Position numbers and translations under genes: made by a program
DNA from: Planctomycetaceae bacterium
GTDB taxonomy: Bacteria > Planctomycetota > Phycisphaerae > Phycisphaerales > SM1A02
NCBI GenBank assembly: GCA_002685335.1
Contig: NYWY01000050.1
Location: 1-17,723, forward strand
Length of the DNA stretch: 17,723 nucleotides
Direction of reading: 5' to 3'
In this document: positions 1 to 17,723 of the stretch, piece after piece
Layout: every line of letters starts with the position of its first letter
Numbering within the stretch: position 1 is the first letter of the stretch
The notes under the pieces: generated by a model
The model's input: only the letters and a program-made list of their open reading frames with translations
What the model was told of the DNA's origin: nothing
The model's database searches: none

Positions 1-1
1 G

Positions 2-664: not shown

Positions 665-687
665 AAGATGAAACTGGATTCGGGCGC

Positions 688-3154: not shown

Positions 3155-3231
3155 AGAATTTCGAAAGGTCTGAAATGATGGAGAACCGTGTCCGGTGTTA
3201 TCGATATCGCGTGCGAAAACGAACGTGTCAC

Positions 3232-3707: not shown

Positions 3708-3713
3708 CTCACC

Positions 3714-5513
3714 ATGCGCCAACTTGATTTCATCGTCATCGCGTTCCTCGCCGCTTGTCTTCTCGGCACCAGTGGGTGCCGGACCGAAGCGGAAGCCGGT
3801 ACCGAGTCGACTTCGATCCTGTCCGCCGCCCCCCGCGCGGACCCGCCGCGATCCGGCCGCGATCCGTCGACCCTGCCGGACCCGCTTCCGCGGCAACTGG
3901 GTGGACCGGTGGCACGGGGAACGACCGAAGTCTTCACCATCGACACGAACGCCTTTCGACGCCGGATCGATCGGCGAAGATTCGACGGAGTCGGAGTGCG
4001 GCCCGCGAGTTTCCTGCCGCCTCACCGGAAGCCGAAACTCGATTTCGATCGGCCGGAGAACGATCTGCCGGTCGGAGATCCGGTTCCGATCGCCCGGACG
4101 ACCCCCGAGAACGCGTTTCCCGGGATTCGGCAGACGCCGTGGAGTCCGCCGGATCCTTCGATCGCGGTCGGTCCCCAGCACGTTCTTGAAACCGTGAACA
4201 TGAAGATCGCGTGGTTCGACAAGTCGGGCACGCCGCAGTTCGAACAGTTTCTCGACGACACGGGTGATCCGGGATTCTTCGAAGAGGTGGGGGCCGGCGG
4301 TTTCACCTTCGATCCCAAGTGCTTCTATGACACGCACGCCGAGCGATACGTCGTTCTCGCTCTTGAGTACTACTCCGGCGCCGGTGAAGCCTGGATGACC
4401 TTCGCCGTGAGTGATGACGACGATCCCGACGGGATCTGGTTCAAGTACCGAACCTGGGCTTTGATCGAATCCGAGGGAAGCGAGTACTGGGTCGACTATC
4501 CGGGTTTCGGGTACGACGAGAACGCCTGGTACATCACGTCCAACCTGTTCGAACTCGGGAACGGACCCGGACCGGGATTCCTTGGAGGGTTGGTTCGAGT
4601 CATCGACAAGTCGGGGCCGCTCTCGGGCGAAACCGCCGAATGGTCCGATCTGATCGCGGGTGGCGCTTCCTGGCAGGTCGCCCAGGCGCCTGCCGCCGGC
4701 CAGTCGACTCGCATCGTTCGCCAGGCGGGAGGCGACCAGCTGGAGATCGGTCGGATCGAAGACCCGCTCGGAGATGCGGTCCTCTCGACTGCGCTGGTCG
4801 ATGTTCCCAACGTGGACTTCGACAATGCCGCCCCCACTCCGGTCGGCGACGGACTCTGGATCGTCGATCCGCGGATCATCAACGCGACCATTCGCGACGA
4901 GGTGCTCTGGTTGGGCAATCATGGGCGCCGCCCCGGCAGCACGGTGGCATCGGCGGTGTGGTACGCGATCGATTGTGGAACGGATCCGCCGTTGCTCGAC
5001 CAGGCGGGCGCCTTCACCTTCGAGAATGACGAGCATTCGTTCTTTCCCGCCCTTGCGGTCAACGGTCTCGGAGATGCGGCCATCGGATTCGGTCGTTCGG
5101 GGCCCGGCCTCGATCCGGTGATCGAAGTGGCCGGCCGTCGGGCCACGGATCCTCCGGGCACCATGAGCACGTCGGTCCGGGTGGGAGCGAGCGTGACCAG
5201 TCCGACCGGCGGTGGCGGGCCCGACGGCCTGAGTCGATGGGGGGACTACTTCGACTGCACCGTGGATCCCGTGGACGACCGCACCTTCTGGATGGTGGGC
5301 GAACTCCAGGATGCCGATGGCTGGACCACCGAGATCCATCGCTTCACGGTCGGTCTCGCCGCCGACCTCAACGGTGACGGGGTCGTGAACGGAGCCGACT
5401 TCGGTCTCCTCCTCGCCGCCTTCGGTGATGCCGGCGGCCCGGCGGACCTCAACCGGGATGGCCTGGTCGACGGCGGTGACGCGGGACTGATGCTGTCGGA
5501 TTGGTCGGACTGA
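3714..5513 (+). CDS. Exported lipoprotein-like protein with C-terminal dockerin-like repeats
   Basis: A 599-residue exported protein of unknown function. The N-terminus MRQLDFIVIAFLAACLLGTSGC is a signal peptide ending in a possible lipidation Cys22. Its -3 residue is Thr rather than the usual Leu, so lipidation is uncertain. A low-complexity Pro/Arg-rich stretch reaches about residue 120. The main body (about 145-545) has many Trp, Tyr and Gly turns, such as DPSIAVGPQHVLETVN, WMTFAVSDDDDPDGIW, YWVDYPGFGYDENAWY and SRWGDYFDCTVDP, and looks like a beta-propeller or other all-beta extracellular fold (inference). Residues 551-599 hold the paired calcium motifs DLNGDGVVNGAD and DLNRDGLVDGGD. The gene is divergent from the protease, and both products share the same C-terminal module. 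It has no Shine-Dalgarno; see the -10-like element at 3702. No catalytic motif was recognised. Confidence 0.85.
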   Translation: MRQLDFIVIAFLAACLLGTSGCRTEAEAGTESTSILSAAPRADPPRSGRDPSTLPDPLPRQLGGPVARGTTEVFTIDTNAFRRRIDRRRFDGVGVRPASFLPPHRKPKLDFDRPENDLPVGDPVPIARTTPENAFPGIRQTPWSPPDPSIAVGPQHVLETVNMKIAWFDKSGTPQFEQFLDDTGDPGFFEEVGAGGFTFDPKCFYDTHAERYVVLALEYYSGAGEAWMTFAVSDDDDPDGIWFKYRTWALIESEGSEYWVDYPGFGYDENAWYITSNLFELGNGPGPGFLGGLVRVIDKSGPLSGETAEWSDLIAGGASWQVAQAPAAGQSTRIVRQAGGDQLEIGRIEDPLGDAVLSTALVDVPNVDFDNAAPTPVGDGLWIVDPRIINATIRDEVLWLGNHGRRPGSTVASAVWYAIDCGTDPPLLDQAGAFTFENDEHSFFPALAVNGLGDAAIGFGRSGPGLDPVIEVAGRRATDPPGTMSTSVRVGASVTSPTGGGGPDGLSRWGDYFDCTVDPVDDRTFWMVGELQDADGWTTEIHRFTVGLAADLNGDGVVNGADFGLLLAAFGDAGGPADLNRDGLVDGGDAGLMLSDWSD

Positions 5514-5592
5514 ATCCGGCCCGGGGTCCGGGGATGAAGTCGTTCATCGACGTCGAGTCACCGCGTCCGGGTCGTCACCCATCGCGGAGAAA

Positions 5593-5622
5593 CAGCGGCC
5601 GTCCGCTTCGGAACGGCCGCTG
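5593..5622 (-). terminator. Strong hairpin terminator after tRNA-Arg, possibly bidirectional
   Basis: A perfect 10-bp stem CAGCGGCCGT/ACGGCCGCTG (5593-5602 with 5613-5622), capped by a further CCG/CGG stem around CTTC. On the minus strand it starts 8 bases after the tRNA and is followed by TTTCTCC. It also sits 80 bases after the lipoprotein stop on the + strand, so it may serve both convergent units. Confidence 0.65.
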
Positions 5623-5629
5623 CTTGAAG

Positions 5630-5703
5630 CGTCCATGGGAGGACTCGAACCTCCAACCCCTGCCTTCGGAGGGCAGTGCTCTATCCAATTGAGCTACATG
5701 GAC
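5630..5703 (-). tRNA. tRNA-Arg (anticodon CCG)
   Basis: A full cloverleaf can be drawn on the minus strand. The acceptor stem GTCCATG/CATGGAC has 7 bp. The D stem GCTC/GAGC has loop AATTGGATA. The anticodon stem CTGCC/GGCAG has loop CTCCGAA, giving anticodon CCG (reads CGG, Arg). The variable region is GGGTT, and the T stem GGAGG/CCTCC has loop TTCGAGT. The discriminator base is G at 5630, and the CCA end is not encoded. It lies 52 bases after the stop of the coiled-coil membrane protein gene on the same strand and has its own promoter candidate and terminator. Confidence 0.96.
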
Positions 5704-5752
5704 CGATCCGTTCGCGACCGGGAGGGCGGTCATCCCCCCGGAGCGATCGCGG

Positions 5753-5781
5753 AGTCTATTCGTTGCCCCTCGCCTCGTCGA
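5753..5781 (-). promoter_or_regulatory. Promoter candidate for tRNA-Arg inside the end of the upstream gene
   Basis: On the minus strand TCGACG (5781-5776), then 17 bases, then TAGACT (5758-5753). The -35 matches TTGACA at four of six positions and the spacer is ideal. The TAG of the -10 box is also the stop codon of the membrane protein gene. A start near 5746 would give a leader of about 43 bases before the mature tRNA. Confidence 0.4.
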
Positions 5782-6739
5782 GCATGCGTTGAACGAGGGC
5801 GAGTTCCGCGGCCATGCGGGCCCGTTCGAGGGTCGCGGATTCGAGGGCCTCGTCAAGAAATTCCAGCTGTTCGATCGCGGTTCTCCAGCGGCGGATCGAA
5901 CGGGTGTTCTCGGTGGTGAGTCGCTGGTGATCGACCACGAGAATTCCCGCCGCGTCCAGTTCGGCGTTCATCGCGGCCCGCTCGTTCTGCAGGATCGAAA
6001 CCTCTTCTCGAAGCAGGGCGAGTTCCGGGCCGGGATCCATGGGGACGACGGGTGCCGGACGGGCCAGGACCGCCGCCGGACCGGACTCGGGAGAAGACTC
6101 GGTCGGCGTCTCGCCGCTACCATTTTCGGGCCAGAAATCAGTGACCAGCCAGGCCACGAGAACGGCGGTTGCGACCATCCAGCCCCCCCGGCCGGAGCGA
6201 CCGGCTCGGTCGCCCGAGGGAGGCCGGGACGTCGGCCCGTCGGTGACCACTCGACCGGTGGCGTCGGCTCGAGGCGCCGTTGGATGAGGACTTCCCTCGG
6301 GGCGTCCGCCGGCAGGCGAAGTCGGAACCCAGGTCCGACTGGTGGTGTTCACCGGTTCCGCGTCGCCCGTGGTTTCGGTCTGCGACGTCGAGCCGACCAG
6401 AGAATTCGGCGTGTCCGGCTCTTCGGGAGATTCATGGGGCATGGGGGCCTCCGTGGCTGCGATCCGTGCGGGGTGATGATCTCCCGACGCCTCTGCAGCT
6501 TCGGCTTCTTCGCCCGTCGGCCGCCAGTTCATCGCCCACTTGGGAGGGCGATTGTCATCGAGGCGGGTGACGATCCGATCCAGAGAGCCTTTCGACTCCG
6601 AGGCCGCCTTCACTGGAGGCTCGACCGCATCGTCGTTCTCATCGCGGTGGCCCGCCTCGGTCTCTTCGGAATCAATCGGATCGAAGGCTGCGAAGGGCAA
6701 CGGGGGGGTCTCGTCGGAGTATGAGGAGGAATCGCTCAT
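5756..6739 (-). CDS. Single-pass membrane protein with disordered N-terminus and C-terminal coiled coil; function unknown
   Basis: A 327-residue protein that I do not recognise. Residues 1-185 are acidic, Pro/Ser/Thr/Glu-rich and probably disordered, except for the short conserved-looking patch LDRIVTRLDDNRPPKWAMNW (about 53-72). One hydrophobic segment, GWMVATAVLVAWLVTDFW (186-203), follows a basic stretch (GDRAGRSGRGG), which suggests the N-terminus is cytoplasmic. After a Pro-rich linker, residues about 237-325 form a predicted coiled coil (LLREEVSILQNERAAMNAEL ... ERARMAAELALVQRMLDEA). The C-terminal part would be periplasmic. There is no enzyme motif. A structural or scaffolding role is only a guess. 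The ATG at 6739 overlaps, in the shared bases CATG, an ATG on the other strand and has no good Shine-Dalgarno, so the start is less certain than the rest. Confidence 0.75.
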   Translation of the reverse strand: MSDSSSYSDETPPLPFAAFDPIDSEETEAGHRDENDDAVEPPVKAASESKGSLDRIVTRLDDNRPPKWAMNWRPTGEEAEAAEASGDHHPARIAATEAPMPHESPEEPDTPNSLVGSTSQTETTGDAEPVNTTSRTWVPTSPAGGRPEGSPHPTAPRADATGRVVTDGPTSRPPSGDRAGRSGRGGWMVATAVLVAWLVTDFWPENGSGETPTESSPESGPAAVLARPAPVVPMDPGPELALLREEVSILQNERAAMNAELDAAGILVVDHQRLTTENTRSIRRWRTAIEQLEFLDEALESATLERARMAAELALVQRMLDEARGNE

Positions 6740-7028
6740 GAGTCTGGTGGATGACCGGTCGGGGATTTCCGGGTCGCTGCAGGAGGACTGGGACTCGGAG
6801 AGACTACGCGTTGCGGTGCTGGAGCGCCTGAAACCGCCGGTTCATCCACAGTTCGAAGCGGCATTGGAAAGCCCCTCAGCCCGCTCGGAGATCCCCGTAC
6901 CGACCCGCCCCGGAGCACTTCATGAGACTCGCCCAGTTCCAGCAGCACATCCGAGATCGCTACTACGAGACCGATGCCGCCCGGGGGGTTCCGGGCACGT
7001 TTCTCTGGTTCACCGAGGAAGTCGGTGA
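6738..7028 (+). CDS. Possible small protein upstream of and overlapping the MazG-like gene
   Basis: A 96-residue ORF that fills the otherwise empty 180 bases between the membrane protein and the MazG-like gene, then overlaps the latter by about 107 bases in another frame. For: a strong GGAGGA lies seven bases before its ATG, and over its unique part the second codon position is much poorer in GC than the first and third, as in real genes. The stretch WDSERLRVAVLERLKPPVHP looks protein-like. Against: the GGAGGA is also the antisense of a Ser run in the neighbouring gene, the ATG overlaps that gene's start, and the tail overlapping the MazG-like gene looks non-native (Arg/Pro/Gly-rich). No family was recognised. 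Confidence 0.3.
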   Translation: MSLVDDRSGISGSLQEDWDSERLRVAVLERLKPPVHPQFEAALESPSARSEIPVPTRPGALHETRPVPAAHPRSLLRDRCRPGGSGHVSLVHRGSR

Positions 7029-7206
7029 ACTCGCCCAGGCCCTCGGCCATCGCGAACGAGGAGATGGAGACGACGTGAATCTTCGCGAGGAATTCGCCGA
7101 TGTCCTCGCCTGGCTCACCACGTTGGCCAACATCTGCGAAGTCGACCTCGAGGCGGCACTCACCCAGAAGTATTTCGAACACGGCGGACCCGCCGGAACC
7201 AAGTGA
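6922..7206 (+). CDS. MazG-like nucleotide pyrophosphohydrolase
   Basis: A 94-residue all-alpha NTP pyrophosphohydrolase of the MazG-like superfamily, which hydrolyses nucleoside triphosphates to monophosphate and pyrophosphate, often to clear damaged nucleotides. Seen directly: a first helix MRLAQFQQHIRDRYYETD, then the metal-binding signature EExxE as Glu32-Glu33-x-x-Glu36 (TEEVGELAQAL) and ExxD as Glu57-x-x-Asp60 (REEFADVLAWL), then the final helices with EVDLEAALTQKY. The length matches single-domain MazG-like proteins. The start is set by GGAG six bases before the ATG. The gene ends 15 bases before asnB and is probably co-transcribed with it. Substrate not predictable. Confidence 0.88.
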   Translation: MRLAQFQQHIRDRYYETDAARGVPGTFLWFTEEVGELAQALGHRERGDGDDVNLREEFADVLAWLTTLANICEVDLEAALTQKYFEHGGPAGTK

Positions 7207-7221
7207 ACGGATCCGTATCGC

Positions 7222-9051
7222 ATGTGTGGTCTCTTCGGCATTCTCTCCTCCGGCGACGACGGACTTCCGCGGGATGAGTCGACCTTCCAGGCTCTTCGAG
7301 ATCTCCTGGCTCATCGAGGCCCGGACGATTCGGGGGCGTGGGCGGACCGCAACGTCTGGATCGGACATCGGCGTCTGGCGATCATGGATCCCGCCGGGGG
7401 GCACGAGCCGTTCGTGATCGGAGCCGGGACCGCGGATCCGTGCATCGTGGTCTTCAACGGCGAACTGCTCGAACACCAGGGTCTGCGTCGGGAGCTGGAG
7501 GCGGAAGGCGAGGTCTTTCGGACGACGTGTGACGCGGAAACCGCCGCGGTGGCCCTGGCTCGCTGGGGCGAGGCGGCGCTTGATCGCTTTCGCGGCATGT
7601 TCGCGGTGGCCTGGTACCGGCCGGCGACTCGACGACTGTGTCTCGCCCGGGATCCGATGGGCGTGGTGCCGCTGCTTCATACCGTCGATCCTTCGTCCCG
7701 ATTCGTTTTTTCCAGCGAGCTCGGACCGATTCTGGCTCATCTCGGGGGGGCGGCTCGGGTTGATTCCGACACGGTCGCGACCTACCTCGCAACCATTCGG
7801 ATCACCACGGGGGATCGCACGCTGGTCGAGGGGGTTCGTACGATCCGGCCGGGACATCTGGCTCGAATCGATCTTGACCAACCGCGACCTCGCATCGACA
7901 TCCGGGCCTGGTGGACACCGCCCCGAGCGACGGGTGAATTGACCGGAGCCGATGCGGATGAGGCGATCCGGGGGGTGATCGAGAATTCGCTCGAAGCCCA
8001 TCTTCAGAGCGACGTCGAGGTCTGCTCGTTGCTTTCAGGCGGGATAGACAGTGCGGTCCTGACGAGGCTCGCGGTCGATCGGAGATCGGACTGGCGTACC
8101 TTCACGGCGACCGGTGGCGACGGGATCGACGATCCGGATCGAGCGGCGGCTCGGGTGATGGCGGAGGTGCTGGGGCTCGAAACGGCGGAAGTCAGTGTGA
8201 ACGAGACGACGGAGCCGCCCCTCGCGCGCTGGCGACGGATGATTCGAACCCTCGGAGTACCCCTGGGGACGCCCAACGAGATCGCGATCAACGCGCTCGC
8301 CGAAGCGGTTCGGGACGCCGGGGTGAAAGTCGCGATCAGCGGCGAGGGGGCCGATGAACTGCTGGGCGGCTACGAACCGGTTCTGCGAGTGGTTTCGGGC
8401 ATCGCGGCCACCGGCCCCTCCGCGGAAGTCGCGGCCGCCGCGCTTCTGGAGATCGTGTCCTGGATCTCCCCTGCGAGGCAGGGGGACGTTCTTTCCGAGC
8501 CCTGGGTGGAGGCGATTGGTGGTCATCGTGGACTTCTCCGGGAGACCGCCGACGCGATCGAGTCCGGTGGTTCGGCGGCTGATCCTCGCTCGTACCTCCA
8601 CTGGTTGCAGCAGGTGAATCTGACCGGCCTTCTGGGGCGACTCAATCACGCGGGAATGCTCGCCTCGATCGAGGCCCGGCCGCCATTCGCGGATCGCCGG
8701 GTGGCGGAGACGGTCGCTCGGATCGCGACCGACGATCTGTTTTCGGTCTCGTCCGACCCTGACCGGCCTGCAGCGACCAAAATCACACTCAGGCGTGCCT
8801 TCGCCGGACGATTGCCGGAGGGGATTCTCACTCGCCCCAAGGCGAGTTTTCCCACACCTTTCACCCCCTGGGCGATCGAGATGCTCGAGGATGCGGCGGT
8901 TCGAGACGGCCTGGAGCCACTCCTCGCGGCCGAGTCCATGCAGGCCCTCGCGACTCCGGGCGGTACCGATTCGATTTCGCCGATGCTCGCCTGGCCGCTG
9001 GCGAATCTGGGTTCCTGGTCGGTCGAGACCGGGCTTTCACTGGTCCCCTGA
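7222..9051 (+). CDS. asnB: Asparagine synthetase (glutamine-hydrolysing)
   Basis: A 609-residue two-domain cytoplasmic enzyme that makes asparagine from aspartate, ATP and glutamine. The N-terminal class II glutaminase domain starts directly with the nucleophile Cys2 (MCGLFGIL), which fixes the start. It keeps HRGPDDSG (31-38), GHRRLAIMDP (48-57), FNGE (78-81; Asn79) and Asp104 in TTCDAET. The synthetase domain has the pyrophosphate loop SGGIDS (272-277), SGEGADELLGGYEPV, and the C-terminal K..LR.AF..RLP..I..RPKASFPTPF block. Family members run about 550-630 residues, so this copy is full length. It lies 15 bases after the MazG-like gene. A relative acting on another amidation substrate cannot be excluded, but every catalytic block of AsnB is present. 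Confidence 0.93.
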   Translation: MCGLFGILSSGDDGLPRDESTFQALRDLLAHRGPDDSGAWADRNVWIGHRRLAIMDPAGGHEPFVIGAGTADPCIVVFNGELLEHQGLRRELEAEGEVFRTTCDAETAAVALARWGEAALDRFRGMFAVAWYRPATRRLCLARDPMGVVPLLHTVDPSSRFVFSSELGPILAHLGGAARVDSDTVATYLATIRITTGDRTLVEGVRTIRPGHLARIDLDQPRPRIDIRAWWTPPRATGELTGADADEAIRGVIENSLEAHLQSDVEVCSLLSGGIDSAVLTRLAVDRRSDWRTFTATGGDGIDDPDRAAARVMAEVLGLETAEVSVNETTEPPLARWRRMIRTLGVPLGTPNEIAINALAEAVRDAGVKVAISGEGADELLGGYEPVLRVVSGIAATGPSAEVAAAALLEIVSWISPARQGDVLSEPWVEAIGGHRGLLRETADAIESGGSAADPRSYLHWLQQVNLTGLLGRLNHAGMLASIEARPPFADRRVAETVARIATDDLFSVSSDPDRPAATKITLRRAFAGRLPEGILTRPKASFPTPFTPWAIEMLEDAAVRDGLEPLLAAESMQALATPGGTDSISPMLAWPLANLGSWSVETGLSLVP

Positions 9052-9057
9052 TACCAT
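9052..9057 (+). promoter_or_regulatory. -10-like TACCAT, six bases before the GTG of the phosphatase gene
   Basis: GATACCAT overlaps the asnB stop codon, and TACCAT ends exactly six bases before the GTG at 9064, as at 3702 and 17517. Only 12 bases separate the asnB stop from this GTG, and there is no Shine-Dalgarno. Leaderless initiation, or coupling to asnB translation, would explain the arrangement. Confidence 0.45.
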
Positions 9058-9063
9058 TCACTC

Positions 9064-10662
9064 GTGAACGACACTCTTAGAATCAGACTCCGGAACGCCG
9101 AGACCACCGATCTCGAGGAGCAGGTCCGCGAATTCAGCAAGGCGGCGGTGATCGGTCGCAGCCGGGACGCGGATCTTCTGCTGCTGGACCCCGGGGTGTC
9201 GCGGCGTCACGCCAAATTGATGCCCGGCGACATGGGCGAGTGGTACGTCGAGGATCTTCACTCCACCCGGGGTACGAAGGTCAACGGGCGTCGGCTCGAT
9301 ACCGGAGAAATGGCGACCATCGGCCCGGGAGATCTGTTGGAGATCAACCCCTGGAGTCTTCTGGTCCTCGATGAGAATCAGGGGACCACCGGCGTTCTGC
9401 TGAACGAATCCGGTCAGGACGGGACGATCGAAGATGCGGTCGCGGATCCGATGCTCCAGGCTCGATTCGAGGGCCTGATGGATGCGCTGAGACGAACCGC
9501 GGGCTGGACCGGTGAGGAGGAACTCTTCGCGGCGATGCTCGACTCGTTGCTGGCGGCCAGCGATCTGGAACGCGCGATGCTCCTTCGCATCGAAGGTGAC
9601 GAGACCAGGGCGATGTCGATCCGGGCTCGGCGCCGGGACGAGGAACGGCAACCACGCGGCTTCAGTCGAACCCTGGTCTCGGCCGCGATCGACCGGGAAG
9701 GAACCGTCCGGATGGAAGCCCACCCGGACATCGCGGGCGGTCAGAGCCTGGTGATGTCGGGAGCCGGCGAGGCGTTCTGTCGGCAGGTCGCGAATGACGA
9801 AGAGGGCGTGCAACTCGCGCTCTACGGGGATCGGGTCACCTGCGAGACCGATGGCGATGAACTGGTCGCCTGGTTCGACGCGATCTCCGATCTCTGCGAA
9901 GTGGCCCTTCGAATGCAGCGGGGACGTCGGGCTGAGACCGAACGGGCGAGGTTCGCGGCCGAAATGAACGCCGCCCGGGCGGTGCAGGAACTTCTCCTGC
10001 CCGAAGCCGACGGGCGTTTCGAGCAGTTGACCTGGACCTCGCTTGCGATTCCGGGGCTGGAGATCGCGGGTGATCTCGTCGATGTCCGACCGGTTCACGG
10101 CAATCTGCACGTGATGCTGGGCGACGTGACCGGCAAGGGAACCCGGGCCGGCCTGGTCATGGCCGGGGCTCAGGCCTGTGCCGATGCGTTGGTGGAGGAA
10201 GGCCTGCCCCCCAAGGAACTGGTGGAACGCCTCGACGCCTGGGCGGTTCGAAACACCCCGGAGATGTGCTTCGTCACCCTCTGGTGCGGTCGGATCGAAC
10301 GTGATGGCACGGTTCACTACGTCGATGCCGGGCACGGTCTGGCCTTGGTGCAACGAGCGGATGGTTCCATCGAATATCCCGAGGCGGGACGCCGTCCACC
10401 CATCGGCATCGAGCCGATGCCGTGTGAACGGACCGAGCTTCGCCTGGAGCCGGGCGATGCGTTGCTGATCTTCAGCGATGGACTCATCGAAGAACCCGGT
10501 CCGGACGACCCCAACGACCGATACGGCCTGGAGCGGGTGATGGAAACGGTCGAGCGGGTCGGGGTCGACCCCAAGGCCATTCACACCGAACTCGTGGACT
10601 GGTGCGGGCGAACCCAGTTCGAGGACGACCTCACCGTACTGGTCGTCCGGCGGGATCCCTGA
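9064..10662 (+). CDS. FHA-domain PP2C (SpoIIE/RsbU-type) serine phosphatase
   Basis: A 532-residue cytoplasmic signalling phosphatase. Residues about 5-103 are an FHA domain, which binds phosphothreonine: GRSRDAD (31-37), VSRRHA (45-50), DLHSTRGTKVNG (64-75). Residues about 130-285 form a linker domain of GAF-like size (LFAAMLDSLLAASDLERAML), too divergent to name firmly. A helix with heptad character (MQRGRRAETERARFAAEMNAARAVQELLLP) leads into the PP2C domain. That domain has its metal-binding acids at Asp337 (AGDLVDV), Asp354 (GDVTGKGTRAGL), Asp472 (FSDGLIEE) and Asp521/522 (EDDLTVLVV), so it should be active. RsbU-type members dephosphorylate anti-sigma antagonists in partner switches; no such partner is visible here. 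The start is forced: the asnB TGA is in frame only five codons upstream and no other start codon intervenes. Both genes are therefore in the same frame. Confidence 0.92.
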   Translation: MNDTLRIRLRNAETTDLEEQVREFSKAAVIGRSRDADLLLLDPGVSRRHAKLMPGDMGEWYVEDLHSTRGTKVNGRRLDTGEMATIGPGDLLEINPWSLLVLDENQGTTGVLLNESGQDGTIEDAVADPMLQARFEGLMDALRRTAGWTGEEELFAAMLDSLLAASDLERAMLLRIEGDETRAMSIRARRRDEERQPRGFSRTLVSAAIDREGTVRMEAHPDIAGGQSLVMSGAGEAFCRQVANDEEGVQLALYGDRVTCETDGDELVAWFDAISDLCEVALRMQRGRRAETERARFAAEMNAARAVQELLLPEADGRFEQLTWTSLAIPGLEIAGDLVDVRPVHGNLHVMLGDVTGKGTRAGLVMAGAQACADALVEEGLPPKELVERLDAWAVRNTPEMCFVTLWCGRIERDGTVHYVDAGHGLALVQRADGSIEYPEAGRRPPIGIEPMPCERTELRLEPGDALLIFSDGLIEEPGPDDPNDRYGLERVMETVERVGVDPKAIHTELVDWCGRTQFEDDLTVLVVRRDP

Positions 10663-10682
10663 CCCCACCCGGCAGTGCTCAT

Positions 10683-10731
10683 GGAAGTTCGCCCGGAAGT
10701 CCGCCCGGGAGTTTTGGCTGGGAGTTCGGGG
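10683..10731. repeat. Four imperfect tandem copies of a 12-13-bp unit
   Basis: GGAAGTTCGCCC, GGAAGTCCGCCC, GGGAGTTTTGGCT and GGGAGTTCGGGG follow one another directly in the gap between the convergent phosphatase and Cys-rich genes. The copies decay from left to right. No function is visible. The rest of 10663-10927 holds only weak hairpins, for example CACCGG/CCGGTG at 10827-10842, and no clear terminator. Confidence 0.6.
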
Positions 10732-10927
10732 GGGGCTCCAGTCACCGCTGAAAAATCACGGCCAACCGGTCGCTGGAGATCACTCCGGAGCGCGAGCGAG
10801 GGCTTCCGACGCTCGGATGGCTTTCGCACCGGGGTCCCGGTGACTCGGGGCGAACCAGTCCATCCCCCGGTGGCGTCGCCTGCCGGACTCTGGACCGAAA
10901 CGCCTCATCGGGGCCCGTGCGTCCCGA

Positions 10928-13900
10928 TCAGTCGCAGATCTGGGTGGCGATGAACACGCAGGTCTCGTCCCAGTCCCCGATGCAGCAGAAGGGTTCGAAG
11001 ACGCAGACGCATTCGCAGACGTCCTCGGTGTCGCAGAAGGGACCGGGGTGGGGCTCGTCGCACGGACCGGTATCCGAGTCGCCGCAGGCCAGGTCGTTGA
11101 TGCAGAGGTCCTCGCAGTTTTCCTGGGCGAGGCTGGCACAGATCGTGTCCCAGCCGGACTCGCACGCCGCGTCGATCGCGATGACCGTCTCGCAGCATGT
11201 CTCGTCGCTGCAATTCGGCGTGCCGTTGGCGAAGCAGCAGTCACCGGCGTTGGGATCACCGCACTGCGGTGCGGGGCAGGCCCCGTCGGGATCGGTGCAC
11301 TCGTCGTTCGCCAGTGCCATGCCCGCACAGACCAGGTCCCACTCCGCGTCGCAGCAGAATGAATCCTGGGCGCACACGGCATCGCAACAGGTTTCGTCGT
11401 CGCACTTCGGCGTGAAGTTCGGCACGCAGCAGCCGCCGGCACAAGGATCGCCGCAATCCCAGTTCGCACCGCAGTTGCAGCGGGTGTCCTGGCGAGCGAG
11501 GCGGACGCATTCAAGGTCCCAGGTCGAGTCGCAGCAGATCGGATCGGTGTCGCAGACCGATTCGCAGCACCGCTTGTCGTTGCAGGAGGGGGAGAAGTTC
11601 ACCTCGCAGCATTTTCCGGCCGGGAAGTCACCGCACTCCGGGACTTCGCACGACTGGAGGGCTTCGTTCGCACAGGTCGCGTCCCATGCCGCGGAACAGC
11701 AGATCGGATCGATCTCGCAGACCGCGTCGCAGCATTCGGCGTCCGAGCAGCCCGGGTTCAGGTGGGGATAGAAGCACGGTCCCGCGGATTCCAGACCGCA
11801 TCCTCGACGACAGCGTTCTTCCGCGAAGGACACGCAGAACGAGTCCCAGCGGGTGGTGCAGCAGATCGGGTCGATGGTGCAGACGGCCTCGCAGCACGGC
11901 GTGTCGTCGCAGAAGGGCGTGTCATGGGATTCAGTGCAGGATCCCGCCACCGACGCTCCGCACTGCAGGTCACTTCCGCAATAGAAGCGGGCGGTGGTGG
12001 CGCAGTTCTGGTCCCAGTCGATGGTGCAGCAGGCTTCGTCGATGCGGCAGACCGCGACGCAGCAACTCTCGTCCTCACAGCCGGGGCGGGGTTCGCTCGA
12101 GTCCCGGGCTTCGAAGCAGCTGCCTTCGCAGGGGCAGTTCAGGTCTTCGATGTCGCTGTTGAACAACCGACTGCAGTTGTCCAGGGCGATCGTGCCGCAG
12201 AGATTGTCCCATTCGGTGTCGCAGCAGCGAGGGTCGAAGGTGCAGACCACGTTGCAGCACGACGGATCGTCACACATCGGGGTCGGATGGGGCGTGAAGC
12301 AACTGCCGATGCCGGGGCATTCGTACAGGCCGCCGCAGACCGCCTTGGCCGCCTTGACGCAGCCGGCATCCCAGCGGTTGGTGCAGCAGTACTCGAAGCC
12401 TTCGGTGGCACAGACCTGGGCGGAGCAGACGGCGTCGTTGCAGCCGGGCGAGCCGTGTCGCGTGAGGCAGGAGTCGCGGGATCCACCGGCGGCCGGCGGG
12501 TCACACGCGTTGATCGCCTGTTGTGCACAGACCGCGTCCCAACGGACTTCGCAGCAGTACGCGTCGAAGTCGACGCAGATCGAGGTGCAGCAGGTCGCAT
12601 CGGAGCAGCCGGGAAGGGGCGCCTGGATGTAGCAGTTTCGAGCGGTGGGCAGCCCGCAGACCTCGGTGAGCTTGCACTCGGTGCGACCCTGGGCGAGGCT
12701 TGCGCAGGCGGAGTCCCAACGATCGGTGCAGCAGAACGAGTCGATCTCGCACACGGCCTCGCAGCAGTCCTCGTCCGAGCAGGCGGGGGTCGATCCGCCC
12801 GCGAGACAACTGCCCGCAAGGATGTCGCCGCACTGGTTGCACTCGCTCTGAGCGAGCTCCACGCACGATTCGTCCCACGCGGTCGTGCAACAGGTGACGT
12901 CGATGATGCAGACGTTCTGGCAGCAGGCGATGTCGTCGCAATAGGGGGTCTTGCCGGGCACGTTGCAGGAGCCGGCGAGAATGTCGCCGCATCCGGGGAA
13001 GAGATCGTCGAAGGGTGAACAGACCTCCAGGGCGCCTTCGGCGCAGAGTTCGTCCCAGATCGCTTCACAGCAATAGGAATCGATGTAGCAGACCGCGTTG
13101 CAGCATTCCGCGTCCTGGCAGCCGGTGAGGTACTGCGAGCCGAGCTCGCGTGCCTCGAAGCAGGACCGGTTCAAGGGTCCGAACTCGATGAGCTTGGGGC
13201 CGCAGGTGCAGTCGGGGGCCTGGATCTCGCAACCCGCGGTCGCGAGCTGGGCACAGTATTCGTCCCATCGAACGTCGCAGCAGTAGGCGTCGTACCCACA
13301 GACGATCTGGCAGCAGGCGGCATCCTCGCAGTACGGGGTGAAACTCTGGTAGCAGCAGTTGCCGGTCGCGGGTGAACCGCACCGGTAGAGGCCGTCCTGA
13401 GCTTCCACGCTGGTGGATCCGACCATCGTCACGTCGGGTTGCCCGGTGACGTCCGCGGGGACCAGGACGCACTGCAGGGCCGCGAGATCGACGCACTTCT
13501 GATCCCAGGCGGTGTTGCAGCACGTGGGGTCGAGCTCACACACCAGCTGGGAGCAGTAGCCGTCGGAGCAGCCGCCGAGATCACGGACCGTCAGGCAGTT
13601 GCCGAGGCCGCGGGTGAGCGGTTCCGGCCAGCGACAGAGCTGGTCGGCGATCTGGACGCACGCCGCATCCCACTCGCCTTGCTGGAAGAGATCCCGACAG
13701 CCTGGGTAGTTGATCGAGAGGGTCGCCAGGCATTCCTGGATGTCCTGGTCGAAGTTCTGATTGCCGGCGGGAGCGCAGTAGGCCGGGTTGAGCAGGCAGA
13801 GGAAGAGCTGGAGACGATCGAGCTGCGCCTGAAGCGGATCGGGCTGCTTCGGGGTGGGGTCGACCGGAGCGCAGAGAAGGGCATTCGACGGGAAGACCTG

Positions 13901-14773
13901 GATGTTGAGGCCGGGCTGATCACGGATCACACCCAGGGCGATCGTGGCGCAGGCCGCATCCCAGTCACCCACCAGCGTGCCGTCGAGCAGAACACTCGGC
14001 TCGCAGCAGTTCGGGTCGATCTTGCAGACTTCCTCCTGGAGAACGAGGTTGCTGCAGGGGGTCTGGCAGTGTTGCTTGACCAGTTCGACGCAGGTGGTGT
14101 CCCAGACCGTCACGCAACACGCGGGGTCCGAGGCGCAGACCAATTCCCGGCAACGGGCATCCGAACATCCCGGGTAGCCGTGTTCGAAGAGGCAGTCGAG
14201 GTTGGTGATCTCCCACTCGTGATCGCACAGGCAGTTGCCGGCATCCGGTTGATTGTCGGGCGCGTTGGCGACGCAGATGTTCTCCGCGATGTTCACGCAG
14301 TTGGCATCCCAGAGGATGCCGCAGCAGAGCGGATCGGCATTGCAGACCGCGCTGCAGCAGGTCGCGTCGCTGCAACCGCCGGGCATGGGGCCGCCGGGGA
14401 CCGCGGGGGTGAAACAGTCTCGATTCGCCGGGTCGCCACAGGCTTCCCGGCAGGCGCCGTCGGACTCGTTCACCACGCAGTTGAGGATTTGGAGATCTTC
14501 CGTGTCGACCACCCCGTCGTCGTTGAAGTCGGCGCACAGGTTCTGGGGGAACTGGACCTTGTAGATCTCGAAGGTCATCAGGTCGAACTCGTCGAGGAGT
14601 CCGTCGGCATTGAGGTCGCCACGGCACTGCCCGCATTCGACCCAGAACTGCGGGTTCTCGGGCGGCGGGGGGCAGAACTGGGCTCGGGCGCCCGCGGAGA
14701 ACACCATGACCGTCAGGGTCGCCACGAAGGCGAGGAGACGGAGGTGGCCGGGGGTGTGGGTTCGGGTCGACAT
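10928..14773 (-). CDS. Giant secreted cysteine-rich tandem-repeat protein with N-terminal dockerin-like motifs
   Basis: A 1281-residue exported protein with no enzyme motif that I recognise. The ATG at 14773 is preferred because it gives a clean signal peptide, MSTRTHTPGHLRLLAF..MVFSAGARA, cut before QF. An ATG at 14785 is also possible, and neither has a Shine-Dalgarno. After the signal come two calcium-loop motifs, DLNADGLLDEFD and DFNDDGVVDTED, here at the N-terminus rather than at the C-terminus as in the protease and lipoprotein. The rest is about 19 tandem units, 17 clear and 2 degenerate, of a module P-x-C-x-D-x-x-C-C-x-x-V-C-x-x-D-x-x-C-C-x3-W-D-x-x-C-x3-A-x3-C. A linker often reading CGDxxAGxC joins them. 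Such density of paired cysteines implies a disulfide-stapled extracellular rod or matrix protein (inference). It is probably transcribed alone: uppS upstream ends 204 bases earlier, with a palindrome and a -10-like box in between. Confidence 0.9.
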   Translation of the reverse strand: MSTRTHTPGHLRLLAFVATLTVMVFSAGARAQFCPPPPENPQFWVECGQCRGDLNADGLLDEFDLMTFEIYKVQFPQNLCADFNDDGVVDTEDLQILNCVVNESDGACREACGDPANRDCFTPAVPGGPMPGGCSDATCCSAVCNADPLCCGILWDANCVNIAENICVANAPDNQPDAGNCLCDHEWEITNLDCLFEHGYPGCSDARCRELVCASDPACCVTVWDTTCVELVKQHCQTPCSNLVLQEEVCKIDPNCCEPSVLLDGTLVGDWDAACATIALGVIRDQPGLNIQVFPSNALLCAPVDPTPKQPDPLQAQLDRLQLFLCLLNPAYCAPAGNQNFDQDIQECLATLSINYPGCRDLFQQGEWDAACVQIADQLCRWPEPLTRGLGNCLTVRDLGGCSDGYCSQLVCELDPTCCNTAWDQKCVDLAALQCVLVPADVTGQPDVTMVGSTSVEAQDGLYRCGSPATGNCCYQSFTPYCEDAACCQIVCGYDAYCCDVRWDEYCAQLATAGCEIQAPDCTCGPKLIEFGPLNRSCFEARELGSQYLTGCQDAECCNAVCYIDSYCCEAIWDELCAEGALEVCSPFDDLFPGCGDILAGSCNVPGKTPYCDDIACCQNVCIIDVTCCTTAWDESCVELAQSECNQCGDILAGSCLAGGSTPACSDEDCCEAVCEIDSFCCTDRWDSACASLAQGRTECKLTEVCGLPTARNCYIQAPLPGCSDATCCTSICVDFDAYCCEVRWDAVCAQQAINACDPPAAGGSRDSCLTRHGSPGCNDAVCSAQVCATEGFEYCCTNRWDAGCVKAAKAVCGGLYECPGIGSCFTPHPTPMCDDPSCCNVVCTFDPRCCDTEWDNLCGTIALDNCSRLFNSDIEDLNCPCEGSCFEARDSSEPRPGCEDESCCVAVCRIDEACCTIDWDQNCATTARFYCGSDLQCGASVAGSCTESHDTPFCDDTPCCEAVCTIDPICCTTRWDSFCVSFAEERCRRGCGLESAGPCFYPHLNPGCSDAECCDAVCEIDPICCSAAWDATCANEALQSCEVPECGDFPAGKCCEVNFSPSCNDKRCCESVCDTDPICCDSTWDLECVRLARQDTRCNCGANWDCGDPCAGGCCVPNFTPKCDDETCCDAVCAQDSFCCDAEWDLVCAGMALANDECTDPDGACPAPQCGDPNAGDCCFANGTPNCSDETCCETVIAIDAACESGWDTICASLAQENCEDLCINDLACGDSDTGPCDEPHPGPFCDTEDVCECVCVFEPFCCIGDWDETCVFIATQICD
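10931..14383 (-). repeat. Array of about 19 eight-cysteine protein repeats
   Basis: This is the coding stretch of the repeat module within the Cys-rich gene. Core units are about 35 residues, joined by linkers of 16-25 residues, sometimes longer, for a typical period of 54-65 codons. Nearly invariant positions are the eight cysteines, the Asp two residues after the first Cys, and the Trp-Asp pair before Cys7. The third and fourth units are degenerate: one carries an insertion before GDWDAAC, and one has lost its centre (PGCRDLFQQGEWDAAC). The last three clear 'DPICC' units (around 11532, 11697 and 11859) also share DNA-level identity at 165- and 162-base spacing. Confidence 0.88.
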
Positions 14774-14840
14774 CTGGAGGATCATCAAGAGTGCGGTTCG
14801 TCGGTGGAGGAACGGGCATCGGTCCCGGGAATATGGGGCC

Positions 14841-14874
14841 GGAATCGGCGGTCACGAGTCGTGTCGCCGATTCC
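14841..14874. promoter_or_regulatory. Long palindrome upstream of the Cys-rich gene
   Basis: A perfect 10-bp inverted repeat GGAATCGGCG/CGCCGATTCC (14841-14850 with 14865-14874) with a second palindrome, CACGAGTCGTG, nested in its centre. It lies between uppS and the Cys-rich gene, directly after the -10-like TACACT on the minus strand. No T-run follows on either strand, so an operator or a 5'-leader hairpin is more likely than a terminator, though termination of the purA-uppS operon cannot be excluded. Confidence 0.45.
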
Positions 14875-14876
14875 TG

Positions 14877-14882
14877 AGTGTA
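14877..14882 (-). promoter_or_regulatory. -10-like TACACT upstream of the Cys-rich gene
   Basis: TACACT on the minus strand, of the same TANNNT form as the other candidates in this window. Transcription would start near 14870, inside the palindrome at 14841-14874, giving a leader of roughly 95 bases. No convincing -35 box. Confidence 0.3.
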
Positions 14883-14988
14883 TGCCACCCTCGGGATGCG
14901 AACCAGCCACACCGACTTCTTCGTCATTCGTGTAGCCCGGGGGGAGGGATCCCGGTCTTTCAATGGTTTCCTTCGGGAGTTTTCGGTC

Positions 14989-15771
14989 CTACCCGTCGGC
15001 GGTCGGAGCGATCGCCCCGAATCTTCGGGCTCGTCCGGCGAAGACCTCGAATGCCGCGTGAAGCTCCGCGGTGCCGAAATCCGGCCAGGTCACGTCGGTG
15101 ACCACGAGCTCCGCGTAACTGATCTGCCAGAGCAGGAAATTCGAGATTCTCATCTCGCCCGCCGTTCTGACGAGCAGATCGGGGTCCGGCAGGCCGTGGG
15201 TGTCGAGCCGGGCCTCCAAGGCCGCCTCGTCGATCGATTCCGGATCGAGCCGGCCCGCGGCCACTTCGGCCGCGAGGGTTCTGGCCGCATCGGTCAATTC
15301 CGCTCGGCCACCGTAGTTCAGGGCGAGACAGAGGGTGAGCCCGGGACAGTGCCTGGTCGCCTCTTCACAGGCATCCGAGGCATCCAGGACCGAGGTGGGA
15401 AGTCCCTCGCGACGACCGATCCGGCGGAATCGAATTCCGTTCTCGATCATTCGAGCCCGTTGGTCCACCAGATGGGCCTGGCAGAGCGTCATGAGGGCGT
15501 CGACCTCGTCCGCCGGGCGTTTCCAGTTCTCGCTGCTGAACGAGTAGAGCGTGAGGGCCTCGAGGCCGAGCCTGGCGCACTCCGTGGTGACGAGGTCCAC
15601 GGTGCGGGCGCCGGCCTGATGGCCGGCCAGCCGGGGCAGCCCCTGACGTCCGGCCCATCGCCCGTTGCCGTCCATGATGATCGCGAGGTGACGGGGAAGA
15701 AGTCCCGGCTCGGGACGTTCCGCCTTCACCATCGCCTCTTCGGAGGCCGGAGTGACTGGGTCTTCATTCAC
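14989..15771 (-). CDS. uppS: Isoprenyl (undecaprenyl diphosphate) synthase
   Basis: A 260-residue cytoplasmic cis-prenyltransferase that condenses isopentenyl diphosphate onto farnesyl diphosphate to make the C55 lipid carrier for cell-wall and surface polysaccharide synthesis. Signature blocks are all present: HLAIIMDGNGRWA with catalytic Asp34, GHQAGA (50-55), LYSFSSENWKRP with Asn82, LNYGGRAEL (151-159) and RTAGEMRISNFLLWQ..YAEL with Arg202, Glu206, Arg208 and Glu221. The length matches the family (about 250). The GTG start at 15771 is supported by AAGGA seven bases upstream. The gene follows purA by 22 bases on the same strand, so they are probably one operon. cdsA, a frequent partner of uppS, is not adjacent. 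Confidence 0.95.
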   Translation of the reverse strand: MNEDPVTPASEEAMVKAERPEPGLLPRHLAIIMDGNGRWAGRQGLPRLAGHQAGARTVDLVTTECARLGLEALTLYSFSSENWKRPADEVDALMTLCQAHLVDQRARMIENGIRFRRIGRREGLPTSVLDASDACEEATRHCPGLTLCLALNYGGRAELTDAARTLAAEVAAGRLDPESIDEAALEARLDTHGLPDPDLLVRTAGEMRISNFLLWQISYAELVVTDVTWPDFGTAELHAAFEVFAGRARRFGAIAPTADG

Positions 15772-15793
15772 GCGGAAATCCTTGGGGATGACC

Positions 15794-17146
15794 TCATCCG
15801 GCCACCAGCACTTCGCGACGCTCCGGCCCGATGCTCACGATCTCGATCGGGACTCCGACGAATGATTCGATTCGATCGAGATAACGACGAGCGGCGTCGG
15901 GAAGGTCCTCCCGACCTTCGGGTGGCGTCACCGGATCCGGCCAGCCGGGCATCGTCTCGTACACCGGTTCGATCTCCGCGAGATCGAGTGCATCCGGCGG
16001 GAAGCGATCGGTGATCGATCCGTCCGGGCGTCGATAGCCGACGCAGACCTTGACTTCATCGAGCCCGCCGAGCACGTCGAACAGGGTGCAGGCGATGCCG
16101 GTCACGCCACAGACCATCGCGGTGTAACGAACCGCGACCAGATCCAACCAGCCGCAGCGGCGAGGTCGTCCGGTGGTGGTCCCGAATTCGCGGCCTCGCT
16201 CCCGGATCTGATCGCCGATCACGTCATCGAGTTCGGTCGGGAACGGGCCGCCGCCAACTCGGGTCGAATACGCCTTCATGATGCCCAGCACCCGATCGAT
16301 CCGTCCGAGTGGCACGCCGGTTCCCGCGGGAATCCCGAGGGTCGAGCAGTTGGAACTGGTGACGAACGGATAGGTGCCATGGTCGACGTCGAGCAAGCAC
16401 GCGTTGGCACCCTCGAAGAGAAGACTTCGCCCGTCGGACAGGGCGTCGTGCAGGTACCAGGTGGTGTCGGTGACGTGCGGAGCGAGGCGTTCGCCCTGGG
16501 CGAGGGCTTCGTCGAGCAGTCGCGAGACGTCCACTGATTCGGGGTCCTGCACCCCCAGGGATCGAAGCTGGGCTTCGCGGAGTCCACAGGCCAGTTCGAG
16601 CTTGGTTCGGAGGCGGTCCTCGTGGGCGAGATCACCGACCCGGATCGCGGTGGAGCGGAAGACCTTGTCCGCATACGCGGGGCCGATGCCTCGACGCGTG
16701 GTGCCGATCGCATCGCGTCGATTTCCGGCCATGAATTCCTCGAGGGCTCCGTCGAGGGCCTTGTGATAGGGCATCACCACGTGGGCTCGACTCGACAGAC
16801 GGAGATTGGAATCGACCTCGATACCGCGGCCTCGGAGGCCGTCGATCTCCTCGAGCAGTTTGGCCGGGTCGACCACCACGCCGTTACCGATGATGCAGGT
16901 GCAGCCGGGGAAGAGGATTCCCGATGGCACGAGGTGGAGGGCGTATCGCTCGTCGCCGACCACGACGGTGTGTCCCGCGTTGGCACCGCCGTTGTATCGG
17001 ACGATGCAGTCGTGGTCCGGGGCCAGGATGTCGACCAGCTTGCCTTTGCCCTCGTCGCCCCACTGGAGGCCGACCACGGCGGTATGGCCACCTCCCTGAG
17101 GGTAGGAGCCTGGATCGGACGCGTGTTGATTGGAAGAGTTGGGCAT
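15794..17146 (-). CDS. purA: Adenylosuccinate synthetase
   Basis: A 450-residue cytoplasmic enzyme that joins IMP and aspartate using GTP, the first step from IMP to AMP. Motifs in order: the P-loop and catalytic block LQWGDEGKGKLVD with Asp31, NGGANAGHTVV with His59, IGTTRRGIGPAYADK in the IMP-binding region, STRVGGGPFPTE, and GTTTGRPRRCGWLD. The ATG at 17146 is set by AGGAG five bases upstream (17152-17156). The ORF stays open upstream, but that extra sequence does not look native. The N-terminus carries about 20 extra residues (MPNSSNQHASDPGSYPQGGG) before the conserved fold. It heads the operon with uppS and is divergent from the zinc-ribbon gene. A TAGACT box lies 20 bases upstream of the start. 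Confidence 0.96.
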   Translation of the reverse strand: MPNSSNQHASDPGSYPQGGGHTAVVGLQWGDEGKGKLVDILAPDHDCIVRYNGGANAGHTVVVGDERYALHLVPSGILFPGCTCIIGNGVVVDPAKLLEEIDGLRGRGIEVDSNLRLSSRAHVVMPYHKALDGALEEFMAGNRRDAIGTTRRGIGPAYADKVFRSTAIRVGDLAHEDRLRTKLELACGLREAQLRSLGVQDPESVDVSRLLDEALAQGERLAPHVTDTTWYLHDALSDGRSLLFEGANACLLDVDHGTYPFVTSSNCSTLGIPAGTGVPLGRIDRVLGIMKAYSTRVGGGPFPTELDDVIGDQIRERGREFGTTTGRPRRCGWLDLVAVRYTAMVCGVTGIACTLFDVLGGLDEVKVCVGYRRPDGSITDRFPPDALDLAEIEPVYETMPGWPDPVTPPEGREDLPDAARRYLDRIESFVGVPIEIVSIGPERREVLVAG

Positions 17147-17166
17147 GAATTCTCCTGCGATGTGGC

Positions 17167-17172
17167 AGTCTA
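17167..17172 (-). promoter_or_regulatory. -10-like TAGACT upstream of purA
   Basis: TAGACT on the minus strand, 20 bases before the purA ATG, leaving a short leader of about 14 bases that contains the AGGAG ribosome site. It is identical to the hexamers at 5753 (tRNA) and 17517 (hemW-like gene). No clear -35 box. Confidence 0.4.
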
Positions 17173-17220
17173 CGACGCCCGGAAACCTTCGGGGGCCTTC
17201 GAGATGGTCCGGATTGCGGG

Positions 17221-17245
17221 TTCCTGCTTCAGCCTGCTTCAGGAA
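17221..17245. promoter_or_regulatory. Overlapping direct and inverted repeat between purA and the zinc-ribbon gene
   Basis: CCTGCTTCAG occurs twice head to tail (17223-17232 and 17233-17242), and the whole is flanked by TTCCTG ... CAGGAA, an inverted repeat (17221-17226 with 17240-17245). It sits midway in the 151-base divergent intergenic region, where a shared operator would be expected. Confidence 0.4.
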
Positions 17246-17297
17246 AGGTCGATCTGCCCGGAGTCGGCGTCGGCGAGGCGTCCGGAGGAGGTGATGG

Positions 17298-17498
17298 GTG
17301 AGTGAACCGCAGGTCATTCGAATCATGTGTCCGAATCTCGGCTGTCAGCGAGTGCTGGCCGTACCGGATCATGCCCGTGGCAAGCTGGTTCGATGCCGCT
17401 CCTGTGGCACCAACATCCGGATTCCCGCGATGCGGGACCCGGCGATTCCGCGGAATCTCGGCGTCCAGGCGTCGGAGTCCGGCGGCGATGCCGCCTGA
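17298..17498 (+). CDS. Small zinc-ribbon protein
   Basis: A 66-residue protein with four cysteines placed as a zinc ribbon: Cys11 and Cys16 in MCPNLGCQRVLAVP, and Cys33 and Cys36 in GKLVRCRSCGTNIRIP. The first pair has four residues between the cysteines rather than the usual two. The layout (C..C, hydrophobic strand, VP, GK, RCxxC) resembles MJ0042/FmdB-like finger domains. The C-terminal 25 residues look unstructured. The GTG start is supported by GGAGGAGGTG just upstream. It is divergent from purA and 30 bases ahead of the hemW-like gene. Function unknown; nucleic-acid or protein binding is a guess. Confidence 0.75.
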   Translation: MSEPQVIRIMCPNLGCQRVLAVPDHARGKLVRCRSCGTNIRIPAMRDPAIPRNLGVQASESGGDAA

Positions 17499-17516
17499 GT
17501 GACTCGCGTGACGGCG

Positions 17517-17522
17517 TAGACT
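17517..17522 (+). promoter_or_regulatory. -10-like TAGACT, six bases before the GTG of the hemW-like gene
   Basis: TAGACT ends exactly six bases before GTG 17529, and no Shine-Dalgarno is present. The TAG is in frame with the gene, so the start cannot lie further upstream. This is the third TANNNT-N6-start arrangement in the window. Confidence 0.5.
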
Positions 17523-17528
17523 CGTCAC

Positions 17529-17723
17529 GTGCCTCCTGATGAACTCCCTCTCCGCGTCCTGCAGAACGCCGTCGCCTCCTCGGGTGATGATGCGGCGATG
17601 TTGCTTGAAGGGGCGGCGCCGGATGCGATCTACGCCCATGTGCCGTTCTGTCGCCACAAGTGCCATTACTGCGATTTCTATTCCCTCGTCGACCGTCGAG
17701 ATCGCTTCGACGACTTCGTCCGA
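17529..17723 (+). CDS. hemW: HemW-like radical SAM protein, N-terminal part (3' truncated by window)
   Basis: The first 65 residues of a radical SAM enzyme of the HemN/HemW group, which are heme chaperones or coproporphyrinogen oxidase-like proteins. The diagnostic block IYAHVPFCRHKCHYCDFYS is present, with Cys41-x3-Cys45-x2-Cys48 binding the [4Fe-4S] cluster that cleaves S-adenosylmethionine, and the aromatic Tyr47 typical of the family. The GTG start is bounded by an in-frame TAG four codons upstream, and the next in-frame ATG is only 13 codons before the block's IYAHV. The N-terminal extension of about 33 residues before the block is longer than in most HemW proteins. HemW is preferred over HemN from motif spacing, but the truncated gene does not settle this. 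Confidence 0.8.
   Translation, partial: MPPDELPLRVLQNAVASSGDDAAMLLEGAAPDAIYAHVPFCRHKCHYCDFYSLVDRRDRFDDFVR

Follow-up and report, generated by a model that had tools for sequence, protein, structure and literature searches.

Seventeen copies of a cysteine-rich module in an apparently exported protein of Phycisphaerales that shares the module with secreted enzymes

Introduction

Two described planctomycete systems lie closest to the protein treated here. Cysteine-rich YTV proteins occur in wall preparations and, in the available part of the report, are described as confined to Planctomycetales (PMC8567305). A second report proposes for freshwater Phycisphaerae, as far as its available text goes, a "planctosome", a cohesin/dockerin-based complex for peptide degradation that includes M12B peptidases and has an LTD anchor; within the same portion, its main text contains no word starting with "cysteine" (PMC6461901). 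Here we compare with both systems a gene on contig NYWY01000050.1 (assembly GCA_002685335.1) of a Planctomycetaceae bacterium, placed by GTDB in Phycisphaerales. The stretch analyzed, called the window below, comprises positions 1–17,723 of this contig. The gene encodes a protein with 17 full copies of a cysteine-rich module, hereafter the multi-module protein. An earlier reading, made from the DNA sequence alone (the original prediction), had described it as a giant exported protein of about 19 eight-cysteine units, which it could not place in a named repeat family and which suggested a surface fibre, adhesin or matrix protein.

Results

The gene and its product

The open reading frame (ORF) of the multi-module protein occupies positions 10928–14788 on the minus strand, to which all coordinates within this gene refer, and encodes 1286 amino acids. 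The original prediction had located the ORF with a span that was too short (10931–14383), and "giant" is a generous word for a protein of this length. Translation would start at TTG (14788); ATG at 14785 gives the 1285-residue form found in the database, where homologue P0001 (1285 residues) differs from the window protein at 7 of 1285 positions. The N terminus resembles a signal peptide ending in ...SAGARA (14681–14788), which, judged by eye, supports the export proposed originally. It is followed by a dockerin-like pair of EF-hand-type loops (DLNADGLLDEFD ... DFNDDGVVDTED; 14480–14620) and then by the repeats (10931–14440), which extend to the C terminus. Both loops of the pair are readable; scanning of residues 16–1286 gave a Dockerin_1 match of 12.2 bits (E 0.22), below the Pfam cut-off of 22.9, and the best phmmer match to solved dockerins had an E value of 0.12. 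This pair, itself below cut-off, is the sole calcium-type motif of the protein. The protein has 192 cysteines (15%), and after the signal peptide it carries 206 acidic and 49 basic residues, with a computed isoelectric point near 4. Cysteine content across 120 homologues is 11.9–18.9%.

The module and its cysteines

The regular expression W-D/E-xxC found 19 units in the multi-module protein, as did a unit profile hidden Markov model (HMM) at a threshold of at least 8 bits, in line with the number first proposed. Seventeen of these score at least 20 bits with a complete or nearly complete cysteine pattern, and 15 of the full modules form a run to the C terminus (unit HMM; residues 407–1285; 10934–13570). 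The two degenerate units are the third (residues 245–285; 13934–14056; 16.4 bits) and the fourth (residues about 353–387; 13634–13738; HMM match over residues 372–385, 11.4 bits). Relaxed to a loose form, the cysteine pattern is found 16 times in this chain, whereas 2000 shuffles that preserved composition averaged 0.018.

The pattern C-x4-CC-x3-C-x5-CC-x7-C-x7-C was confirmed on 1285 same-length units from the window protein and its homologues; more fully, the core reads C-x4-CC-x3-C-x5-CC-x3-WD-x2-C-x3-A-x3-C. The Asp noted near the first cysteine lies two residues past it in 1003 of these units and that of the Trp-Asp pair is present in 1243, the units having been selected with a regular expression that demanded several of the cysteines and the Trp.

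Cysteine loss was followed in 983 non-redundant modules (75% identity filter) drawn from 2828 distinct modules in 244 sequences, namely the homologues from two protein searches, the window protein and ORFs from fetched loci. Linker cysteine Lb is lost together with C1 in 21 of 22 modules without C1 (p 8e-23), linker cysteine La together with C7 in 75 of 110 modules without C7 (p 1e-29), and C34 together with C6 in 29 of 41 modules without C6 (p 6e-23). A near-invariant core consists of C11, C17, C18 and C26. Loss of C26 was never seen among the 983 modules, and C11 is absent from eight, together with C17 in four and with C18 in three, which makes pairing within the core ambiguous. These correlated losses support the disulfide stapling suggested in the original prediction and point to the putative pairs Lb–C1, La–C7 and C6–C34. 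The map is inferred rather than measured, because weaker co-losses are also significant at p < 1e-3 (La with Lb, with an optional second linker cysteine and with C17; C6 with C7; C7 with C17 and C34) and the 75% filter leaves some relatedness. The commonest cysteine count per module is ten (471 of 983; range 5–14).

The CGDxxAGxC motif had been taken as a linker between units. It is modeled confidently (below), and its cysteines are paired, by their joint loss, with cysteines of the unit; we therefore assign it to the domain. The module is thus a domain of about 54 residues with ten cysteines and probably five disulfides. A cysteine-rich protein for metal binding or thiol storage would also account for 192 cysteines and many Asp residues, and is very improbable given that cysteines disappear in specific pairs, as disulfides would (most clearly in the modules lacking C1), and that the protein looks exported.

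Predicted fold and family status

AlphaFold2 was applied to three consecutive modules (11459–11968; 55 sequences), the check put forward with the original prediction, and returned a confident all-helical model with three helices per module (predicted local distance difference test, pLDDT, 92.3; predicted template modeling score, pTM, 0.71). A conserved Asp immediately precedes each predicted helix or lies no more than two residues from its start. Because of this position the three conserved Asp residues look like helix caps and not calcium ligands. A Foldseek search with the module fold gave no match in the PDB at E ≤ 10. The chain model of residues 100–1285 (pLDDT 86.3, pTM 0.77) suggests that the modules adopt one defined arrangement and are not loose beads.

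The family is already catalogued. PF26780 is the precomputed label on all 120 listed homologues, including P0001, and on every protein listed in a second and a third protein search. By this label the units belong to an existing Pfam family, the outcome that the original prediction had named as counting against it. Our Pfam scans used a copy without PF26780; in them the multi-module protein matched no family besides Dockerin_1, and it had no match in NCBIfam or PHROGs at E ≤ 1. The module has no EGF, TSP1, VWC or TIL match among the Pfam, NCBIfam and PHROGs profiles, in keeping with the part of the claim that set these families aside. In the literature searched, no title or abstract opening was found that treats PF26780 or the multi-module protein. 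As far as these searches reach, the new parts are the predicted fold, the seventeen-module architecture, the synteny and the proposed disulfide pairs.

Module number and order

The homologue set consists of the 120 listed of 326 sequences found by similarity to residues 600–1100 of the window protein, a query region that favours similar architecture, with eligible lengths of 0.55 to 1.75 times that of the window protein. So broad a range of permitted lengths does not by itself impose a count of 17. At a threshold of at least 20 bits, exactly 17 units are present in 104 of the 120 homologues and likewise in the window protein. When degenerate units are included (8 bits), 82 of the 120 have 17 units and the others 15, 16, 18, 19, 20 or 25; the window protein then has 19. 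The same threshold applied to 19 genome loci with a multi-module gene gave 17 units in 15, 18 in three and 16 in one.

The order of the modules is conserved as well. Among nine 17-unit proteins of 43–49% identity, 541 of 1224 comparisons placed the best-matching unit at the corresponding position (72 expected). The 17 units of the window protein, compared with these nine, gave 76 same-position best matches of 153 (9 expected); window units 2 and 6 never found their best match at the same position. The window protein shares both marks of the group: its 17 full modules keep the conserved order, and its gene follows uppS in the same orientation.

Some multi-module homologues carry N-terminal additions. 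Lamin-tail-like stretches, recognized by eye, precede or alternate with modules in P0095, P0108, L018, L034 and L036; the protein of L018 with such a stretch gave no match in a Pfam scan. Two longer proteins, P0020 and P0023 (1862 and 1826 residues), have 25 units rather than 17, possibly representing an expansion or a second subfamily.

The near-constant architecture bears on the adhesin or surface fibre of the original prediction, in which a flexible, extended string of modules would bind particles or cells. An apparently exported, repetitive and acidic protein, with N-terminal additions in some members and a module that co-occurs with C-type lectin domains, fits such a role. Adhesin repeats are usually variable in number. 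The 17 full units in most homologues, their conserved positions and the pTM of the chain model, which argues against loose beads, render this reading unlikely.

Distribution and genomic locus

Genome samples were drawn within the phylum, class and order around, and including, G003, a genome picked for having the gene; limited numbers of candidates were scored per genome, so per-genome match counts are lower bounds. Matches to the unit profile came from 2 of 294 genomes at phylum level, 39 of 248 at class level and 40 of 151 at order level, which agrees with the narrow distribution expected originally. The taxon labels of named homologues and of records L001–L004 indicate Planctomycetota, for the most part Phycisphaerae or Phycisphaerales. 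Homologue P0119 is labeled Pseudomonadota by its source; its nearest relatives in the set are 71–77% identical, and we suspect a mis-binned metagenome-assembled genome. A search with P0040 (E ≤ 1e-60) found the multi-module protein in 26 of the 151 order genomes, G003 and the genome of P0040 itself included, with a single match in each. All 26 belong to the 40 genomes with the module, and the remaining 14 have at least 1–22 module matches and no multi-module protein. A plasmid- or phage-borne protein was also considered and rejected: tblastn with three modules gave no match at E ≤ 1e-5 in 72,556 plasmid and 50,697 phage records, and a fold search of BFVD gave three matches at E ≤ 10, none of them at E ≤ 0.001.

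Of 20 loci selected for module matches in long ORFs, all but one (L056) hold a multi-module gene. Upstream of it, on the same strand, each of these 19 has uppS (undecaprenyl/polyprenyl diphosphate synthase), and purA (adenylosuccinate synthetase) is on the same stretch. The distance to uppS is within 600 bp, or the genes overlap with ORFs called from the furthest start, in 15 loci; it is 3.0–5.3 kb in four. The window has the gene order of these 19 other loci, purA (15794–17326, minus strand), uppS (14989–15771, minus strand) and the multi-module gene. In closer relatives (L002, L004, L043, L044 and L052) mazG, asnB and a gene for an FHA–SpoIIE protein are also kept beside it. The window likewise encodes a fusion of an FHA domain with a SpoIIE-type phosphatase (9064–10662, plus strand), convergent with the multi-module gene. 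A tRNA-Arg (anticodon ccg; 5629–5703, minus strand) was the sole RNA detected in the window.

This locus and the composition of the protein are compatible with a structural role in the cell envelope, in which the multi-module protein would form a disulfide-hardened outer layer or coat, a YTV-like part in this clade, and would carry no enzymes. Cysteine makes up about 15% of an apparently exported protein, which is single-copy, conserved in architecture and encoded beside the envelope gene uppS. The YTV profile (PF07639) matched in 0 of 151 order genomes, against 3 positive of 59 phylum genomes in the same search, and a precedent exists in the YTV proteins of wall preparations, restricted to Planctomycetales in the portion of the report at hand (PMC8567305). 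Total cysteine counts are odd in 56 of the 120 homologues and even in 64 (whole database sequences), which leaves room for unpaired cysteines or interchain links and would permit cross-linking. Against a purely structural role, 111 of the 151 order genomes lack the module, and its presence on lectins as well as peptidases points beyond a pure wall protein. Nor is a substitute for peptidoglycan needed, because mraY, one gene of the pathway, is over cut-off in 24 of the 26 multi-module genomes; of the other two, G458 has two sub-cut-off fragments and G572 a weak match only. Replacement of peptidoglycan is further disfavoured by mraY over cut-off in 142 of the 151 order genomes. We regard an envelope role free of enzyme carrying, the chief competitor of the scaffold discussed below, as possible, on the unlikely side.

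The module on other secreted proteins

Twenty stretches chosen from three genomes contain 25 ORFs with one to four modules each; among these ORFs is the N-terminal part of a multi-module protein, and several are cut by contig ends. Ten were compared with Pfam. Two have an M43 metallopeptidase domain, one a subtilase, one a C-type lectin domain, one beta-helix and laminin G domains, and two (one being the lectin protein) a T9SS-associated galactose-binding domain; two matched only a sub-threshold dockerin and two nothing. The second protein search placed the module, labeled PF26780, on M12-type, M43 and trypsin-like peptidases. The third, with a 170-residue piece, returned two proteins among eight candidates owing to its length limits. 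Within the same genomes, single modules are thus borne by peptidases of the metallo-, serine and subtilisin types and by lectin-type proteins.

The module sits at the ends of many peptidases, and its putative disulfides are dense. It could accordingly be an inert protective or spacer domain that staples its neighbours against proteolysis, with the multi-module protein serving as a protease-resistant decoy, reserve or inhibitor. This would leave the constant number and positional identity of the 17 modules and the conserved locus unexplained, and we consider it improbable.

Dockerin-type loops accompany the module. By a loose regular expression, 24 of the 25 module ORFs and 63 of another 98 module proteins have them, as against 5 of 148 other ORFs 300 residues or longer; the contrast is only rough because the control ORFs were unfiltered for secretion. 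Among the 120 multi-module homologues, 58 have such loops towards the N terminus. GC-type dockerins (NF041540) matched in 102 of the 151 order genomes (94 over cut-off), with dozens of matches in many. They were found in 38 of the 40 module-bearing and in all 26 multi-module genomes (module and dockerin co-occurrence, Fisher p 4e-6, a statistic that ignores relatedness). Cohesin (PF00963) matched in 10 of the 151 (9 over cut-off), five of which bear the multi-module gene; no cohesin was recognizable with this profile in the other 21 of the 26 multi-module genomes. For most of these dockerins the genome has neither a recognizable cohesin nor a multi-module protein. A role of the multi-module protein as a universal dockerin receptor is not supported, 76 of the 102 dockerin-bearing genomes lacking its gene.

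Two other window proteins have dockerin-like stretches. A subtilase (Peptidase_S8, E 5.8e-50; 688–3096, minus strand) has a C-terminal GC-type dockerin-like stretch of 24.3 bits (cut-off 29), and no WDxxC module is visible in its translation. A 599-residue protein (3714–5513, plus strand) has as its only match a C-terminal dockerin-like pair below cut-off.

Discussion

The multi-module protein combines a module of definite boundary, present in near-constant number and order, with one copy in each sampled genome that has it, a syntenic locus and the sharing of its module with secreted enzymes. One domain is put to two uses: one to a few modules occur on many secreted enzymes, and a near-constant seventeen in one protein. 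The constant number, positional identity, single copy and conserved locus argue for a component of fixed size whose sites differ from one another, rather than for a variable adhesin, and a module common to secreted peptidases argues for a common extracellular apparatus. Set size and shared module together lead us to favour, tentatively, a secreted, disulfide-hardened surface scaffold of fixed architecture, which would be the docking and structural part of a peptide-degrading apparatus; we hold this plausible, a little short of probable. The "planctosome" proposal, as given in the available part of that report, counts in its favour (PMC6461901).

On such a scaffold model, the multi-module protein would be exported, probably by Sec, and oxidized outside the cytoplasm, where about five disulfides would lock each helical module of about 54 residues. 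Packed together, the seventeen modules would form a single hardened and highly acidic assembly of defined arrangement at the cell surface. They would act as the docking and structural domain of the extracellular apparatus, and the multi-module protein would organize or carry the secreted peptidases and lectin-type proteins that bear single modules. The fold, the single assembly and the disulfide pairs are predicted, the first two by structure modeling and the last from cysteine loss.

Several points weigh against the scaffold. We infer its surface location, docking and tie to peptide degradation, and its genomic neighbours uppS and purA are housekeeping genes, uninformative on scaffolding. The evidence for the fold consists of confidence scores and helix content and carries no claim on disulfide geometry or the shape of an assembly. 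With an even cysteine count in only 64 of the 120 homologues, full intrachain pairing is impossible across the set. Only 58 of the 120 homologues have dockerin-type loops, 35 of the 98 further module proteins lack them, and 76 order genomes have dockerins and no multi-module protein.

A more specific proposal, which we judge quite unlikely, makes the multi-module protein a new scaffoldin, a cohesin-free, disulfide-built backbone with fixed, distinct sites that would carry both dockerin- and module-bearing peptidases. It is raised because dockerins occur in all 26 multi-module genomes, 21 of which have no recognizable cohesin. If true, it would supply the missing partner for at least some of the abundant GC-type dockerins. 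Apart from this proposal, the two uses of the module make two questions testable: what holds the GC-type dockerins where no cohesin is found, and of which proteins the envelope or surface apparatus consists in a lineage whose genomes gave no match to YTV wall proteins.

Comparison with known systems places the multi-module protein beside several of them. Like the YTV wall proteins (PF07639), it is cysteine-rich and planctomycete-restricted, the latter as described for YTV in the available text of that report (PMC8567305); it differs from them in having another repeat and no PF07639 match. Its likeness to cellulosomal scaffoldins and the proposed "planctosome" lies in its many modules, apparent secretion, dockerin-like domain and occurrence in genomes with dockerin-bearing peptidases. 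Unlike cellulosomal scaffoldins, it has no cohesin match, and cohesins are present in only 5 of the 26 multi-module genomes. Small domains with vicinal cysteine pairs include hydrophobins, anaphylatoxin domains and plant eight-cysteine proteins, from whose patterns the module differs in the order and spacing of its cysteines. Cohesins are beta-sandwiches, whereas the module is predicted to be all-helical and rich in disulfides.

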